Source: an uncultured Opitutia bacterium (lineage in GTDB: Bacteria; Verrucomicrobiota; Verrucomicrobiia; Opitutales; Opitutaceae). From it: a stretch of DNA of 62,854 nucleotides. Location: contig CAIOAO010000106.1 in the NCBI GenBank assembly GCA_903855985.1, positions 1 through 62,854 of the forward strand, given 5' to 3'. The translations under genes and the position numbers were made by a program. Below, in pieces: positions 2,879 through 55,126 of the stretch. Every line of letters starts with the position of its first letter. Within the stretch, counting starts at the first letter, position 1. The notes beneath the pieces are model-generated. The model made no database searches. It was not told the DNA's origin and saw only the letters and a program-made list of their open reading frames with translations.

Positions 2879-3889
2879 ATGCTGCTCACCTGCCAGGCTG
2901 GCTTTGAAACCCTGCTCGAGCGCGAGCTCGCCGCGACCGGCGGGCCCGCGGTGGAGACGGGTCCGGGCTGGGTGCGGACGGAAGGCGCGGAGTTTCGCGA
3001 GACGCTGGCCTTTCCCTGGCTGGAGCTGATGACCCCGGTCGAGCTCAAGGGCGAGGCGGTCAACGCGCTGGCGCAGCGCGTGGCGGAATATTTTTTTGAG
3101 AACCTGAAAGGCGAGCGCGTGGAAGCGGACTGGCCCTGCGTGTGGCAGGGACCGCAGGAGATCACCGGGCTGGGGCGCCGGATTTCGGCGGTGGAAAAGG
3201 CGTTCGGGGAGTTGCTCAAGAAGAAGCTCTCGCGCGTGGCCAAGCTGGCGAAACTGGATGTGCCGCGCGGCGCGGGACCGGCGCGGGGCCTTTTTGTCTA
3301 TTTCACGGATTTTGGGCGGATGTTCGTCGCCCGCGAGGCGTTCGTGCACGGCCAGCGCCGGATGGCGGATGACGACCTGGCGCCGTCCCGCAGCTACTTG
3401 AAGGTGGAGGAGGCGTACATCGTCCTCGGACGCGAACCGGCGGCAGGCGAGACGGTGTGCGACCTCGGCGCGGCGCCGGGGGGCTGGAGTTTCAGCGCGG
3501 CCCGGCATGGCGCGAAGGTGCTGGCGATCGACAACGGGCCGTTGAAGGGCGGCGCGTTCAACCACCCGCTGATCGAGCACCGGCTGGCGGATGCGTTCCG
3601 TTTCGCCCCGGCGGCGGTGGCGGGGGAACACTACGACTGGCTCTTCTGCGACATGCTGGAGGAACCGCACCATGTCATGCAGCAGATTGTCCACCCGTGG
3701 CTGTCGCAGGGCTGGTGCAGCCGCTTTGTCATCAACCTGAAGTTCGGCCGGGTGGATCCGATCGCGCTGCTGGGCGAATTGCGCGGACCGGAGTCGCCGT
3801 TCACGAAGTTCGCGCCGGGCTTCCGCATCCGGCACCTGTACCACGACCGCGAGGAGTTCACGGTGGTGGGCGAAGTGAAGGCGAAGTAG
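2879..3889 (+). CDS. rlmM: RlmM-like 23S rRNA 2'-O-ribose methyltransferase (FtsJ domain)
   Basis: This is a SAM-dependent methyltransferase of the RlmM/FtsJ type, 336 aa against about 366 aa in E. coli RlmM, which methylates 23S rRNA C2498. The SAM-binding motif DLGAAPGGWS is clear. A K-D-K-E catalytic tetrad can be assigned from RSYLKVEE, LFCDMLEEP, INLKFGR and REEFTVV. The N-terminal part would be the THUMP-like region. The frame is open back to a GTG at 2822, but ATG 2879 begins MLLTCQAGFE, which fits the family start. The stop codon TAG lies inside a short palindrome, and the same arrangement recurs twice elsewhere in the window. Exact rRNA target is inferred from the family. Confidence 0.85.
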   Translation: MLLTCQAGFETLLERELAATGGPAVETGPGWVRTEGAEFRETLAFPWLELMTPVELKGEAVNALAQRVAEYFFENLKGERVEADWPCVWQGPQEITGLGRRISAVEKAFGELLKKKLSRVAKLAKLDVPRGAGPARGLFVYFTDFGRMFVAREAFVHGQRRMADDDLAPSRSYLKVEEAYIVLGREPAAGETVCDLGAAPGGWSFSAARHGAKVLAIDNGPLKGGAFNHPLIEHRLADAFRFAPAAVAGEHYDWLFCDMLEEPHHVMQQIVHPWLSQGWCSRFVINLKFGRVDPIALLGELRGPESPFTKFAPGFRIRHLYHDREEFTVVGEVKAK

Positions 3890-3914
3890 GGCGGGTCGAA
3901 GACCCGCTCCACTT
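3884..3914. repeat. GTAGGGCGGGTC palindrome, copy 1
   Basis: Left arm GTAGGGCGGGTC (3886-3897), loop GAA, right arm GACCCGCTCCAC (3901-3912), with two imperfect positions. The left arm contains the TAG stop of the upstream methyltransferase gene. Related copies lie at 20316-20329 (half), 52459-52482 and 54456-54482. It could act as a terminator or be a REP-like mobile palindrome. Confidence 0.75.
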
Positions 3915-16878: not shown

Positions 16879-18600
16879 TCAGGCGGGAGTTTCAGTGCTG
16901 GCGGTGGCCGGAGCGGCCGCGGCGGCGGCGGTGACCTCAGGCCAGAGGACGCGGGCGGAAAAATCGCCAAGGCGCTCGGCGGGCTGACGCTCGGTTTTCC
17001 AGCGGGTCAGGATGGGGCGCAGCTCGGCCTCGAGCTCGGTTTCCTTGATGACCTCCTTGAAGACGCGGTTGAGCCGGGTGCCGGCGGCATTGCCGCCGAG
17101 CCAGAGCTGGTAGCGCCCGGGGGCCTTCCCCACGAATGCGATCTCGGCCATGTACGGCCGGGCGCAGCCGTTGGGGCAGCCGGTGGAGCGGATGATGATT
17201 TCCTCGCCGCCGAGCCCAAGCTCGCCGCCGAGTTTCTCGATGCGGTCAATGAGGCCGGGCAACATGCGCTCGGACTCCGCGAGGGCGAGGCCGCAGGTGG
17301 GCAGGGCGGGGCAGGCCATCGCGGCGGCGTGCAGGATGGAAGCCTGCTGGTCGACTTTCACTCCGTGGCTCGCGAGCAGGGCGGTGACCGCGGCGCGCCC
17401 GGCGGGCGGGACGTTGGCGAGGATGATGTTCTGGTTGGCGGAGAGACGGAACTCGATCTGCGGAAATTTTTCCGCGGCCTGGCGCAGCGCGGTTTTCAGC
17501 GTGTGGCCGGGCACGTCCTTGATGCGGCCGGTCTCGACAAACAGCGTGAGGAAGAGGGTGCCGTCCACGGCCCGGTGCCAGCCATAGAGATCGCCCGTGG
17601 TGGTGAACTCGAACCGGCGGACGCCGGAGAGGACCGGCCCGGCGCGGCGGACGATCTCGTCGTAGAGCCAGGCGGTGCCGCGCTCCTCGACGACGTACTT
17701 GAGGCGGGCGTGCTTGCGGTTGGTGCGGTCGCCGAAGTCGCGGTGGATGGTGAGCACGGCCTTCGCGACCTCAACCAGGTGCGCGGGGGTGAAGAAACCG
17801 ATCACGTCGGCGAGCCGGGGGAAAGTCTGCACGTTGCCATGGCTGCGGCCCATGCCGCCGCCGACCGCGAGATTGTAGCCCACGACACGGTCATTCTCCA
17901 CCACGGCGATGAAACCGAGGTCGTTCGTGTAGACGTCCATGTCGTTCACCGGCGGAATGACGAACGAGACCTTGAATTTGCGCGGCAGGTAGGTCGGGCC
18001 GTAGAGCGGGTCGACGAACTCCTTATTGGCGGGTTCGGCGAGATTGAGCTGCACGTGGTCGATCCAGATCGAGTGATAGGCGGGGGTCTTCGGCGCGAGG
18101 GCCTCGACGACGCGCAGGCTGTCGGCGAAGACCTGTTCCCGGGCCTTGGTGTAGGCCGGGGTGGGCGAGGCGGTGATGTTGCGGTTCACGTCGCCGCAGG
18201 CGGCGAGGGTCGACAGGAGCGACTCGTTGATTTTTTTGACGAGGGTGCCGAGGCCGGACTTGAGGACGCCGTGGAACTGCAGGCTTTGGCGCGTGGTGAT
18301 GCGCAAGGTGTTGTTGCCGAAGTTCGTCGCGAGGTCATCGAAGGTGATCCATTGCGCCGGGGTCATGACTCCGCCCGGGATGCGGCCGCGGATCATCATC
18401 ATGTACTTTTTTCCGGTCTTGCGGAGGTCGCGGTCGTCCTGCTGGTAAATGCCGTGGAACTTGAGGAATTGCTCGTCGTCCTCGTGAAAACGGTCGGTCG
18501 TCGGGTCCAGCAGGGTCGGGGCAATACCGCCGCCGAGGGTCGGATCGCCCTGCTTGAGCAGCTCGTTCTTGGTGAGGGTCGGGGTGGCGGCTTCGGACAT
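16879..18600 (-). CDS. cysI: assimilatory sulfite reductase hemoprotein
   Basis: It reduces sulfite to sulfide by six electrons using siroheme and a 4Fe-4S cluster. The 573-aa protein has the two cluster/siroheme cysteine motifs ACPALPTCGLALAESER and STGCPNGCARPY. Siroheme-pocket arginines lie in LRITTRQSLQFHGV and the GGGMGRSHG segment. It ends with a short Ala-rich tail. It is first in the minus-strand operon, followed 37 bp later by cysH. No flavoprotein subunit (CysJ) is near, so electrons may come from ferredoxin or a distant CysJ. The divergent gene pair beyond it makes siroheme. Confidence 0.95.
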   Translation of the reverse strand: MSEAATPTLTKNELLKQGDPTLGGGIAPTLLDPTTDRFHEDDEQFLKFHGIYQQDDRDLRKTGKKYMMMIRGRIPGGVMTPAQWITFDDLATNFGNNTLRITTRQSLQFHGVLKSGLGTLVKKINESLLSTLAACGDVNRNITASPTPAYTKAREQVFADSLRVVEALAPKTPAYHSIWIDHVQLNLAEPANKEFVDPLYGPTYLPRKFKVSFVIPPVNDMDVYTNDLGFIAVVENDRVVGYNLAVGGGMGRSHGNVQTFPRLADVIGFFTPAHLVEVAKAVLTIHRDFGDRTNRKHARLKYVVEERGTAWLYDEIVRRAGPVLSGVRRFEFTTTGDLYGWHRAVDGTLFLTLFVETGRIKDVPGHTLKTALRQAAEKFPQIEFRLSANQNIILANVPPAGRAAVTALLASHGVKVDQQASILHAAAMACPALPTCGLALAESERMLPGLIDRIEKLGGELGLGGEEIIIRSTGCPNGCARPYMAEIAFVGKAPGRYQLWLGGNAAGTRLNRVFKEVIKETELEAELRPILTRWKTERQPAERLGDFSARVLWPEVTAAAAAAPATASTETPA

Positions 18601-19460: not shown

Positions 19461-20320
19461 GCAAAGCAACCGCGCGCCACAAAATGCCGCGTGAGCCAGA
19501 GTCTCCCTGCGTGCTGCTGGTGGACAACGGTTCGCTGCAACCGGCCGCGACCCGGCAGCTGCGCAAGATTGCGGCGGCACTGGGACGGCGCTGGGGCAAG
19601 AAAGTGACGCCGGTCTCGCTGCTGCACTCGGACCAGGTGCCGGCGAAAAAACTGGGCGGGCGGAAGGCGGAAATCCTGCGGGACGCGGTGGGGCAGCGCC
19701 TGCACCAGGGCGGGCGGGAGTTTGTGATCGTGCCGCTGTTTTTCGGCCGCAGCCGCGCGCTGACGCAGTTCATTCCCGAACTGATCACCCAATGGCGGAT
19801 ACAGGCGCCGAAGCTGAAGGTGCGTCTTGCCGCGCCACTGGCCATGGGCGGCGATGACCGCCTGGCGCGGATCCTGGAGACCCAGGTGCGGGCGAAACTC
19901 ACGCCGGGATTCTTGCGCGGCCAGCGTGCGCGGGTGGCGCTCGTGGACCACGGCAGCCCGGTGAAAACCGTGACGCAGGTCCGGAACCGGCTCGCGACCC
20001 AGCTGCGCCGCCGGCTCGGGCTGTCGGTGGCCGCCGTGGCGCCGTGCAGCATGGAGCGGCGTCCGGGGGCGGAATACGATTTTAACGAACCCCTGCTGGA
20101 AACCCTGTTGGCGACACCGCCGTGGAACACCGGTCCGGTCATCGTCGCGCAGCTTTTCCTGCTGCCGGGCCGGCACGCGGGCCCGGGGGGCGACATCGAG
20201 CGGATTTGCCGGCAGGCCCGGAAAAAAGCCCCGGGACTGCGCACGGTCCGGACCAAGCTGGTGGGGGAGGACCCCGCGCTGGAGGCGATTTTAACGGCGA
20301 GATTTCTCGCGACGAAGTAG
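19457..20320 (+). CDS. CbiX/SirB-like sirohydrochlorin chelatase, two-domain
   Basis: A 287-aa protein with two CbiX-type halves that should insert Fe (siroheme) or Co into sirohydrochlorin. In the N-terminal half the usual HGS active-site segment reads LVDNGSLQP (N24 instead of His) and the second His region reads LFFGRSRALTQ. In the C-terminal half both are present: ALVDHGSPVKT (H165) and LLPGRHAGPGGDI (H240). This suggests catalysis in the C-terminal half only. Translation is coupled to the SUMT gene by an ATGA overlap. Its TAG stop is the start of a GTAGGGCGG half-palindrome. Confidence 0.82.
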   Translation: MSKATARHKMPREPESPCVLLVDNGSLQPAATRQLRKIAAALGRRWGKKVTPVSLLHSDQVPAKKLGGRKAEILRDAVGQRLHQGGREFVIVPLFFGRSRALTQFIPELITQWRIQAPKLKVRLAAPLAMGGDDRLARILETQVRAKLTPGFLRGQRARVALVDHGSPVKTVTQVRNRLATQLRRRLGLSVAAVAPCSMERRPGAEYDFNEPLLETLLATPPWNTGPVIVAQLFLLPGRHAGPGGDIERICRQARKKAPGLRTVRTKLVGEDPALEAILTARFLATK

Positions 20321-20329
20321 GGCGGATCG
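20316..20329. repeat. GTAGGGCGGGTC palindrome, half copy
   Basis: The sequence AAGTAGGGCGGATC spans the stop codon of the CbiX-like gene and matches the left arm of the palindrome family at 3886 and 54456 with one change. No right arm follows. TTTTTAG comes next. Confidence 0.5.
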
Positions 20330-52350: not shown

Positions 52351-52398
52351 TAGTCGCCGCTCTGCACCAAACCTTACAGGTTTTTATTCCATCCGGAT

Positions 52399-52437
52399 GG
52401 ATTGCCGCGTCAGCCCGGTGGGCCTCCTCGCAATGAC
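52399..52437. repeat. ATTGCCGCGTC...CTCGCAATGACA palindromic element
   Basis: The two ends GGATTGCCGCGTC and CTCGCAATGACA resemble the widely dispersed intergenic element whose spurious translation reads CHCEERSDAAI. Here the minus strand reads CHCEEAHRADAAI. It lies between the sigma factor and pepF. Confidence 0.6.
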
Positions 52438-52458
52438 AGTCCTGCATCACCAAAACCG

Positions 52459-52520
52459 AGGCGGGTCGGAGACCCGCCCTACGTTCTGCGGCTCGTCGCA
52501 ACGGGCTGGACGGAGCCCGT
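52459..52520. repeat. GTAGGGCGGGTC palindrome, copy 2, with a second hairpin
   Basis: GGCGGGTC, GGA, GACCCGCCCTAC (52460-52482) belongs to the same family as the copies at 3886 and 54456. It is followed by arms ACGGGCT (52501-52507) and AGCCCGT (52514-52520). Confidence 0.7.
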
Positions 52521-52565
52521 CCCGCCGGGCAAGTTCGGGGGATGACCCCTCATGGAATCCGACTG

Positions 52566-54446
52566 ATGTACCGTAGCCTCGCCGCCCTGCTGGCGCTGGT
52601 TCCCGCGGCCAGTGGCCTGGCCAAACCGGAGACGCACATTCGCGCGGAAATTCCCGCGCAGTATCGTTGGGATTTTACCGCGATCTACCCCAACTGGGCG
52701 GCGTGGGAGGCCGGCATGGCCGACATGCAGGTGAAGATGGATGCGTTTGCCGCGCTGAAGGGCACGCTGAAGAACGGCGCGCCGGCGGTGCTGAAGGCCT
52801 ACCAGGCCTTCGATGAAATCGGCATGATGCAGTACAAGGTCTATCGCTATCCGTCGCTGCAGCGCGACACCGATACGCGGGACCAGGAAGTGGCGGGGAA
52901 ATTCCAGCGTGTCGGCGCGATCTTCGCGAAGTTCGGCACGGCCACCGCATGGTTCACGCCCGAGCTGCTGAGCATCCCGCAGGCGACCATGGAGCAGTGG
53001 ATCGCGGCGACACCGGCGCTCGCGCCGTACCGCTACACCATCCTGGACAACTACCGCCAGCAGACCCACGTGCTGGATGAGAAGGGCGAACGGCTGCTCT
53101 CCTTCGCCTCGCGCTTCAACCAGACGCCGACGGCGACGTTCCAGGAACTGAGCACGTCGGACATCAAGTTCCCGAAGGTCACGCTGTCCGACGGCAAGGA
53201 GCTCACCCTGTCGCCGGGCAACTACCAGCTGGTGCTGGCGACGAACTACCACCAGGCCGACCGGGCCAAGGCCTTCGAGGCCTACCTCAAGACCTACGCG
53301 GCGACGGAGCACACCTACGCGGCAATCTACAACGGGGTGATGGAGCGGGGCTGGTTCACGGCCCAGGCGCGGAATTACCCAACCACCCTCGATGCGGCCC
53401 TTGACGGGGACAACATCCCTCCGGCGGTCGTGTCCACGCTGCTCGACGCGGTGCGCGCGGGCACGGGTCCGCTGCAGCGCTACCTGAAGCTGCGCAAGAA
53501 GCTGCTGGGACTCGAGACCTACCACCTGTACGACGGGCAGATCCCGATCTTCAAGAACGAGAAGGTCTATCCCTACGAGACCTCGAAGGACCTCGTGATC
53601 TCGTCCGTCGCGCCCCTCGGCGAGGACTACGTGGCAAAATACCGGAAGTTCGTCTCCGGCGGGCGGATTGACGTCTACGAGAACGACGGCAAGCGCAGCG
53701 GCGCGTATTGCGCGGGCGTTTACGGCGTCGGCCCCTACCTGCTGCTGAACTACAACGACACCCTCGACGCGGTCTTCACGTTTGCCCACGAGGCCGGCCA
53801 CGGGATGCACACCGTGCTGTCCTATGAGACCCAGCCGTTCGTGACGTCGGGCTACACGATTTTCGTGGCCGAAGTGGCCTCGACGACCAACGAGCGGTTC
53901 CTGCTGAACAAGCTGCTGGCGACCACCACGGACCCGAAGGAGCGCTTCCTGCTCCTGCAGCACGCGGTCGATTCCATCGTCGGCACCTTTTACACGCAGG
54001 TGCTGTTTGCCGACTATGAGCTGCAGGCCCACCGGCTGGTCGAGCAGGGCCGGCCCGTGACGTCGGCGGCCCTGAACGCCATCTACCTGAAACTGCTGAA
54101 GGATTACTATGGCGACGCGGTCACGATCGACGATGCCTACAAGTACACCTGGACGCGCATCCCGCACTTCTACAACTCGCCCTACTACGTCTACCAGTAT
54201 GCGACCTGCTTTGCCTCATCGGCCAAGCTGTTCAAGGACATGACGACGGGCGAGCCGGCGGCGCGCAAAACCGCGACAGAACGCTACCTCACGCTGCTGC
54301 GCAGCGGCGGCAAAGACTACCCGATGGTGCAGCTCCAAAAAGCGGGCGTCGACCTGACCCAGCGCGCCACGGTGCAGGCCGTGGTGGACCAGATGGACGA
54401 GCTCGTGTCCCAGATGGAGGCCGAGGCCGCCAAGATCACGAAGTAA
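52566..54446 (+). CDS. pepF: oligoendopeptidase F, M3 family, with signal peptide
   Basis: A 626-aa gluzincin that cleaves oligopeptides. The zinc motif is FAHEAGHGMH (HEAGH at residues 408-412) and the third ligand Glu is in VAEVASTTNERFL. The N-terminal helical lid domain is present (LQRDTDTRDQEVAGKFQRVG). Unusually for PepF, a signal peptide is visible (MYRSLAALLALVPAASGLA), so it probably works in the periplasm or outside. ATG 52566 is used. An upstream start at 52542 would hide the signal sequence. Confidence 0.9.
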   Translation: MYRSLAALLALVPAASGLAKPETHIRAEIPAQYRWDFTAIYPNWAAWEAGMADMQVKMDAFAALKGTLKNGAPAVLKAYQAFDEIGMMQYKVYRYPSLQRDTDTRDQEVAGKFQRVGAIFAKFGTATAWFTPELLSIPQATMEQWIAATPALAPYRYTILDNYRQQTHVLDEKGERLLSFASRFNQTPTATFQELSTSDIKFPKVTLSDGKELTLSPGNYQLVLATNYHQADRAKAFEAYLKTYAATEHTYAAIYNGVMERGWFTAQARNYPTTLDAALDGDNIPPAVVSTLLDAVRAGTGPLQRYLKLRKKLLGLETYHLYDGQIPIFKNEKVYPYETSKDLVISSVAPLGEDYVAKYRKFVSGGRIDVYENDGKRSGAYCAGVYGVGPYLLLNYNDTLDAVFTFAHEAGHGMHTVLSYETQPFVTSGYTIFVAEVASTTNERFLLNKLLATTTDPKERFLLLQHAVDSIVGTFYTQVLFADYELQAHRLVEQGRPVTSAALNAIYLKLLKDYYGDAVTIDDAYKYTWTRIPHFYNSPYYVYQYATCFASSAKLFKDMTTGEPAARKTATERYLTLLRSGGKDYPMVQLQKAGVDLTQRATVQAVVDQMDELVSQMEAEAAKITK

Positions 54447-54455
54447 GGCAGCGAC

Positions 54456-54482
54456 GTAGGGCGGGTCTTTGACCCGCCCTAC
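54456..54482. repeat. GTAGGGCGGGTC palindrome, copy 3 (perfect)
   Basis: Perfect 12-bp arms GTAGGGCGGGTC and GACCCGCCCTAC with loop TTT, between the convergent pepF and HAD genes. The right arm supplies the TAG stop of the minus-strand HAD gene (54479-54481). It can also serve as a bidirectional terminator. Confidence 0.85.
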
Positions 54483-55126
54483 TTTCCGAACTTCGCGATC
54501 AACACGTCGAGTTTCACCTCGGCGAGCGACGCCACCTTCAGGTCCACATGCTTGAAGTCGTGGTGGGCAGTGGACGGGTTGGGCGCGGCGACGGCCCAGA
54601 GGTTGGCGCGCTTGGCGGCGAGGCTGCCGGTGTGGGAGTCCTCGAAGGCGATCGCCTCGTGTCCACGCAGGCCGAAGCGGTTTAGGACAAGCTTGTAGAG
54701 GTCGGGCGCGGGCTTCGGCAGCGGGACGTCTTCGCGGCAGGCGAGGAATTCGAAGCGGTCGAGCAGGTCGATCCGGGCCAGGTGGCGCTCGCAATGGGCG
54801 TGGCCGGAGTTGGAGGCGAGACCGACGCGCAGCGAGTGGGACCGGGCGGCGTCGAGCAGGGCGACGACTCCGGGGAGGACCGGCAGCTGCAGGTCGCGCT
54901 CGCGGTTGAAGGCCCGGCGCTCGAGCTCGAGCGCGGCGCGGTCGGCGCGTTTTTCGAAGGCATGCCACGGGTCGAAGGCGTAGTCGGCGTGCCCGACCGA
55001 GCGCAGGAAGTGCCCGTAGTCAAAGGCCACGCCGTGGGCGGCATGGACATCCGCGTAGGCGCTGATGAGGGCCGACTCGGTGTCGAGGATCAGGCCGTCG
55101 AAATCGAAGATGAGAGCCTTGATCAT
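54479..55126 (-). CDS. HAD-superfamily phosphatase, beta-phosphoglucomutase-like
   Basis: A 215-aa HAD hydrolase. Motif I is FDFDGLILDTESA with the nucleophile and acid/base Asp, motif II is LASNSG, and motif III/IV is KPAPDLYKLVL with AFEDSHTGSLAAKRA. The helical cap between motifs I and II is of the beta-PGM/phosphatase type. Substrate is probably a sugar phosphate. The last codon and stop (AAG TAG) coincide with a palindromic repeat. It is downstream of the M28 peptidase gene on the same strand, separated by another repeat. Confidence 0.87.
   Translation of the reverse strand: MIKALIFDFDGLILDTESALISAYADVHAAHGVAFDYGHFLRSVGHADYAFDPWHAFEKRADRAALELERRAFNRERDLQLPVLPGVVALLDAARSHSLRVGLASNSGHAHCERHLARIDLLDRFEFLACREDVPLPKPAPDLYKLVLNRFGLRGHEAIAFEDSHTGSLAAKRANLWAVAAPNPSTAHHDFKHVDLKVASLAEVKLDVLIAKFGK

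Follow-up and report, generated by a model that had tools for sequence, protein, structure and literature searches.

The window analyzed herein, the entire 62,854-nucleotide contig C106 of a 2.94-Mb genome assembly (110 contigs) of an uncultured Opitutaceae bacterium, carries at positions 54456-54482 an exact 27-bp palindrome at the junction of two convergent genes, and the stop codon of one of these genes lies inside it. The question raised by this locus is what kind of element the palindrome represents, and whether the stop codons supplied by its copies to unrelated genes are a function of the element or a by-product. It is very likely that the palindrome belongs to an Opitutaceae GTAG REP that is copied by a RAYT as an inverted doublet (REPIN) in relatives and persists as a remnant here, that the copy at 54456 is a collapsed doublet, and that the TAG stops arise as by-products.

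A repeat family with a GTAG tag

Among the palindrome copies listed in the preliminary description, those at 54456-54482 and 3886-3912 were recovered as an exact palindrome and as one with two mismatches, respectively, with no match in 100 shuffles, and both were predicted to form strong hairpins (-25.2 kcal/mol, fold z -6.2, and -22.5 kcal/mol, fold z -3.4). The copy given as 52460-52482 proved to combine an exact core with a single tag, to begin at 52456 (Table 1), and to form no strong hairpin (z -1.1). The proposed half copy at 20316-20329 was reduced to a 12-mer match with one mismatch at 20317-20328, a kind of match that averaged 0.35 per window in 20 simulated windows and that occurred a second time in the present window, at 18001, within a gene on the other strand. 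Since this half-site formed no hairpin (fold z +0.9) and was nearly unchanged in two close relatives, its membership in the family is unproven. On the other side of the 54456 palindrome, the M3 peptidase gene stops at a TAA 9 bp ahead of it, and a TAG-ended ORF on the minus strand (52479-54167), antisense to the peptidase gene, was not called as a gene.

Table 1. Repeat copies in the window and the genes adjoining them.
Feature	Position	Strand	Remarks
FtsJ-like RNA methyltransferase gene	2879..3889	+	Pfam FtsJ 4.2e-8, gene call; possible ORF start 2822
GTAG REP	3886..3912	+	Single exact tag (GTAG 3886-3889), degenerate on the right; methyltransferase stop at TAG 3887-3889
Half-site GTAGGGCGGATC	20317..20328	+	End of CbiX-like gene 19511-20320; REP membership unproven
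Second palindromic repeat, TGTCATTGCGAGG...GGCAATCCATC type	52397..52439	-	Adjoins the 52456 REP
GTAG REP	52456..52482	-	Tag on minus strand (CTAC 52479-52482); exact core 52460-52478; genes on both sides divergent
M3 peptidase gene (oligopeptidase F type)	52566..54446	+	Pfam Peptidase_M3 3.7e-65, gene call; possible ORF start 52542
Perfect palindrome, interpreted as a collapsed doublet of REPs	54456..54482		Between convergent genes; minus-strand TAG 54479-54481 is the HAD stop
HAD phosphatase gene, end inside REP	54479..55126	-	Pfam HAD_2 3.1e-25

Genome-wide, 15 copies with up to three mismatches were detected against none in the control, and exact half-sites numbered 18 against one, all 18 falling in the 22 elements described next. 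When exact half-sites were combined with core matches of no more than one mismatch, 23 places were obtained, 22 of which were analyzed at 19 fetched loci; the one left out (C32:12295) is an untagged core match with one mismatch, overlapping a called gene at its start. A lax core pattern allowing two mismatches was dropped as noisy (33 matches versus 26 in the control). The 22 elements bore 21 exact tags, three elements being double-tagged and four untagged. According to gene calls made with a simple codon-usage caller, 11 elements lay between convergent, eight between codirectional and one between divergent genes, the gene junctions of the window itself comprising 11, 34 and 10 of these types, respectively. 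Two of the 22 elements lay within called genes, compared with 13/100 in G054, a genome of the same family, and 11/92 in five other genomes.

In the relatives (those with names, found via the methyltransferase, being MAGs from the Opitutaceae or from related Opitutia, Verrucomicrobiota), the unit was one-sided, consisting of GTAG followed by GGCGGGTC-N3-GACCCGCC with the opposite end untagged. The base at -1 of GTAG was A in 72/100 tags of G054 and 76/93 tags of the five genomes, and the base preceding that A was A as well in 54/100 and 62/93, respectively; the unit may be written as (A)AGTAG plus the hairpin. G054 contained 137 tagged matches (both strands counted). The 100 of its elements selected for analysis each had an exact tag; none was double-tagged, and 74 formed 37 pairs, all with GTAG outward and 32 with core starts 40-49 bp apart. 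Stretches of the five other genomes gave GTAG outward in 30/30 pairs and one double-tagged element in 92. Inverted doublets (REPINs) with outward tags thus amounted to 67/67 in the stretches of six relatives and to 3/3 in the present genome, while the relative G087 held many copies tagged on both sides. Tagged matches with at most one mismatch were present in 50 of the 252 family genomes. The earlier claim of a multicopy repeat of REP type was supported.

These sequence features place the 27-bp palindrome among the GTAG-tagged REPs, a class already known. In the available text of the 2013 survey of this class (PMC3733652), such REPs have a short stem, mostly of 6-9 bp, with GTAG on one side of it, and the present family resembles them in its doublets and in its sites, which lie mostly between convergent and codirectional genes. 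The exact present sequence may or may not be among the 24 families of that survey. As far as the excerpted papers extend, a Haemophilus parasuis REP, GTAGGGTGGGTCTTGACCCACC (Nunvar et al., 2010; PMC2817692), is laid out in nearly identical fashion, and the REPINs of Bertels and Rainey (2011; PMC3116915) are inverted doublets like those found here.

RAYT genes of the relatives and the perfect palindrome

The search for a RAYT gene proposed in the preliminary description had a divided outcome, in that related RAYTs flanked by the REP were found in relatives (L294, L311 and L312), whereas none matching was found in this genome. The sole Y1_Tnp match here was a 328-aa protein (L034 877-1863), similar long forms of which occur in several relatives; with no GTAG hairpin beside it or beside 13 such long forms in relatives, this protein was ruled out as the enzyme of the REP.

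In the relative G028, a 199-aa RAYT (L294) sits between two REPs of the present GTAG family. Its score of 31 bits with PF01797 (cut-off 23) assigned it to the Y1/HuH transposase family, and six members of its clade scored 69.7-80.6 bits with NCBIfam REP_Tyr_transpos, the cut-off of 80 being reached by two of the six; PDB sequences gave no match to L294. At E 1e-20, 70 of the 252 family genomes matched this RAYT, and the present genome did not. Thirty RAYT loci were fetched, and the 15 at least 55% identical to L294 were taken as the RAYT clade. The present hairpin stood on both sides of L294 (= L310, G028), L311 and L312 (on one side with two mismatches), and sister hairpins with GTC-N3-GAC flanked seven clade RAYTs (L313, L316, L317, L319, L320, L323 and L324). 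A different GTAG hairpin accompanied L315, a variant hairpin was present on one side of L318, and related imperfect hairpins, missed by the scans and read by eye, were present at L314 (G151, same genus), while no hairpin was found at L321 and L322. Judged from these 15 loci, the RAYT clade and the hairpin do not pair one to one. At the 15 more distant RAYT loci (L325-L339), the present hairpin was seen nowhere, L338 and L339 having other GTAG hairpins. Other GTAG hairpins were also observed near further Y1_Tnp genes of Opitutaceae, often on both sides (L165, L170, L173, L175, L179, L292, L293, L297-L300, L302, L306, L308 and L309), suggesting that several different RAYT-REP systems exist in this family.

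The REP was present in 10 of the 15 genomes with the RAYT clade (E 1e-57 or better) versus 40 of the 237 others (Fisher 6e-5), and at least five REP matches were present in 7/15 versus 23/237 (Fisher 6e-4). In these relatives, the small Y1/HuH-type RAYT would copy the REPIN, which would be the mobile form. The RAYTs of the REP/RAYT pairs of Nunvar et al. (PMC2817692), described from another phylum, are in the excerpted text flanked by their own REPs as in the Opitutaceae relatives; unlike those pairs, the present genome is without a matching RAYT. The RAYT clade was missing from the assembly in 40 of the 50 REP-bearing genomes, this one included, and a matching RAYT was not found in G054 with its 137 tagged matches, although contig edges may conceal RAYTs. 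Four relatives (G028, G151, G188 and G245) have msrB (SelR domain), the RAYT and a Gfo/Idh oxidoreductase in one order, whereas this genome (contig C31) and G150 keep msrB, one REP and the oxidoreductase, with a GIY-YIG gene instead of the RAYT; the tag of that REP is replaced by GCAG here and reads GTAG in G150. The simplest reading of this neighborhood would be that the RAYT was lost in the present genome, and the small REP population left behind would probably be immobile.

The perfect palindrome at 54456, in turn, is most simply explained as a collapsed doublet. At the HAD/M3 peptidase junction of G085, two REPs (C39:4418 and 4593) face each other with tags outward and a spacer between them, and two REPs also lie beside the HAD gene of G150, where the contig runs on into another gene. 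The palindrome of the window corresponds to the outer halves of both REPs of these genomes fused into one. A palindrome here versus two REPs plus spacer was likewise found at C110:4764 (against L348, G150) and C43:17197 (against L353, G085), so that collapse was seen at three of the nine own loci with a counterpart among the fetched G085 and G150 loci; the other six were without such change, one of them being a doublet kept in both genomes (L009/L341). A deletion between two inverted copies would remove the spacer of a doublet and leave one symmetrical palindrome tagged on both sides, and the 54456 copy would be one such spacer-less doublet, the direction from dimer to palindrome being favored by parsimony on three genomes. 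Deletions of such kind were anticipated by Bertels and Rainey in the excerpted part of their paper (PMC3116915); compared with the REPINs presented there, one and the same site occurs here as a doublet and as a palindrome in sister genomes. Comparisons of sister genomes that reveal a collapsed doublet or a missing RAYT were not encountered in the available text of PMC3733652.

Stop codons and hairpins at gene ends

The preliminary description held that unrelated genes end in AAG TAG GGC GG with the TAG belonging to the repeat, and this ending was indeed found in all three genes named (FtsJ-like methyltransferase, CbiX and HAD). As the tag contains TAG, a copy lying in frame at the 3' end of a gene would provide a stop codon, usually after AAG (Lys), and the AAG TAG ending recurs in unrelated genes because most tags follow an A or AA. 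The REP TAG served as the stop of a called gene at 4/21 tags here, 12/100 in G054 and 8/93 in the five genomes (20/193 in the six relatives pooled). For non-REP GTAGs, the corresponding counts were 29/1080 and 14/808 (Fisher 7e-5 and 9e-4 against G054 and the five genomes, respectively), a raw comparison tilted toward REPs because the non-REP GTAGs were taken from all positions, also within genes. The frequent supply of TAG stops by the termini of GTAG REPs has already been published (PMC3733652, section 15), and the central idea of the preliminary description is thus in print.

An excess of this kind might mean that the element targets stop codons, or that it is kept as a stop and terminator in one, which we regard as improbable. 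Its settings, mostly convergent or codirectional, are in line with such targeting, as is the observation that, of 40 genes reaching into the REP on its tag side, 20 stop at TAG. The others ended at the loop TGA (nine) or at +35 (two) or read through the repeat (nine), and the frames of the 40 genes from six genomes, 20:9:11, deviated little from evenness (p 0.08); a 12:8:1 bias obtained initially (p 0.012) had been produced by a 60-bp cut-off. Genes whose ends lie close to REPs did not have an elevated TAG share either (18/47 versus 38/133 for more distant ends, p 0.27). A frame or target preference of the REP was not convincingly observed, and a strong preference for stop codons was not supported. 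The scarcity of T-rich tails, described below, and the nine read-through genes likewise argue against a combined stop and terminator. Stop supply would instead result incidentally from insertion at places where a changed protein tail is tolerated. The called genes that read through the REP do so in a stop-free frame (e.g., L215 and L237), and the REP may accordingly encode protein.

The comparison with orthologues suggested in the preliminary description was made for two genes. Among 80 methyltransferase loci (one contig-truncated), the present hairpin was not seen within 70 bases after the stop, and the orthologue tails showed no conservation and were short, each of the three stops being used. 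In L073, a degenerate GTAG hairpin comes after the TAG, and L087, the nearest orthologue, matches the window to 3879, resumes at 3909 and ends at TGA. For the HAD gene, TAG was used at 8 of the 11 loci of the genus, five of the eight being without the present REP and three with it (own genome, G085 and G150); the other ends were one GTAG with another hairpin, three TAG without a recognised REP, three TAA and one running on to a distant TAG. Since TAG occurs at this gene with and without the REP, the REP did not demonstrably bring the HAD stop, which is part of the repeat, yet may predate it. Hairpins of other kinds were also noted at these gene ends: the methyltransferase orthologue L074, without a REP, has there a small hairpin with a T-run (CGGGAATTTCCCGTTTTT) like an ordinary terminator, and the HAD stop of L256 (G124) is a GTAG followed by a different hairpin, GGCGCGTTATCCTTAACGCGCC, so that sister species have unrelated hairpins at the end of this one gene.

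It is very doubtful that plain transcription terminators have converged on one sequence, even though two of the three window copies form strong hairpins and convergent gene pairs are preferred. A T-rich tail was present in only 5/44 strand views here and 8/200 in G054, and no terminator-like site was detected at 54300-54700; as a rule, the REPs have no terminator tail, and the built-in terminator suggested earlier was not supported. Identical arms, the tag and the doublets indicate copying instead. Paired DNA uptake words double as terminators in Neisseria and Haemophilus, and a role of this kind, with which palindromic pairs at gene 3' ends would agree, is of negligible probability here, given that all 18 exact half-sites fall in the listed elements with no dispersed exact single copies, and that RAYT flanking fits REPs. 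An effect of the REPs on mRNA or translation is conceivable by analogy, the available text of the RepRanger paper (PMC12306157) citing work in which REPs less than 16 nt from the stop lower translation.

A GIY-YIG gene among second repeats

The GIY-YIG gene (96 aa, PF01541) that occupies the place of the RAYT between msrB and the Gfo/Idh oxidoreductase lies among three copies of TGTCATTGCGAGG...GGCAATCC (L361 3587-4060, G000:C31), a second repeat that recurs at 52397-52439 of the window and in the HAD-site spacers of G085 and G150. Read by eye, the own copies have the form TGTC-AT...AT-CCA, which the strict CGTC-type hairpin scan missed. With TGTC, a stem starting with AT and a CCA tail, they may be related to the CGTC-tagged REPs (including dRS3 and RPE-4/6), which are marked by a CGTC tag, an AT stem foot and a CCA tail. 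The available text of PMC3733652 states that CGTC REPs 'apparently lack a dedicated transposase'; unlike in that account, a GIY-YIG gene sits here among repeats that look like these.

At E 0.01, 40 homologues of this gene were found in plasmid records, and 21 of these records, chosen for different genera, were examined together with two viral contigs, the only two loci found in a viral-contig scan. The counted set of 21 consists of the examined homologues with at least 40% identity, the own gene and that of G150. The strict CGTC-type hairpin pattern missed the Opitutaceae, Bacteroidota, cyanobacterial and sphingomonad types and was replaced by a motif-free flank test, namely a word of at least 13 bp common to the 260 bp before and the 260 bp after the gene. 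Repeats common to both flanks were detected for 18/21 homologues versus 0/51 control genes (maximum shared word 12; Fisher 3e-14, with related records counted separately and the control genes coming from two records only), or for 15/18 when three pairs sharing their context (Shinella, Sphingobium and own/G150) are allowed for. The misses were Photobacterium, with a GTCAT hairpin on one side only; R. tumorigenes, with a one-sided CTCATTCCTGTG...CACAGGAATCCAG copy seen by eye; and Spirosoma, with a shared word of 11 and, by eye, GTCATCC palindromes on both sides. Among four distant homologues (32-38%), that of Methylobacterium passed the test, and those of Sphingomonas paeninsulae, Cetobacterium and Radiobacillus failed. 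The shared repeats were mostly of the CGTC/GTCAT type, though not all CGTCAT, with CTCAT forms in Sinorhizobium C101 and one viral contig, CGTCGCC in Novosphingobium, and GTCACC in Sphingobium and the other viral contig. Of the first nine records examined, seven had GTCAT hairpins with an end near TCC within 250 bp of the gene on both sides and two had them on a single side, compared with 0 and 1 in two control stretches of 49 kb. Overall, the homologous small GIY-YIG genes (L424-L432 and L435-L444) were observed mostly between palindromic repeats, many of them GTCAT/GTCAC-tagged, in Alphaproteobacteria, Neisseria, Aeromonas, Planktothrix, Spirosoma and others; in Azospirillum, such a gene lies between sufB and sufC.

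A literature search of open PMC papers showed, among the papers listed, no report of a link between GIY-YIG genes and palindromic repeats, and the available part of PMC1564403 makes no mention of one. With chances that we consider about even, GIY-YIG nucleases of ~95 aa could be the missing dedicated enzyme of the CGTC/GTCAT-tagged palindromic repeats, which would comprise the rhizobial repeats, Neisseria dRS3 and, in other phyla, repeats of the GTCATTCTGAG or GTCATTGCGAG type; this partnership of nuclease and repeat would parallel RAYT and REP on an unrelated fold. In the present lineage, such a unit would now stand at the site of the RAYT-REP unit of relatives, its repeats forming spacers between GTAG REPs. 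What moves the CGTC repeats was left open in the available text of the 2013 survey (PMC3733652), and the GIY-YIG association makes this question testable.

The findings on the GTAG REP confirm a published REP effect in a little-studied family and add two natural experiments, namely a site occurring as a doublet versus a collapsed palindrome, and a RAYT neighborhood with versus without the RAYT. The GIY-YIG lead is more novel than the REP finding itself, and matters more than the effect confirmed herein.
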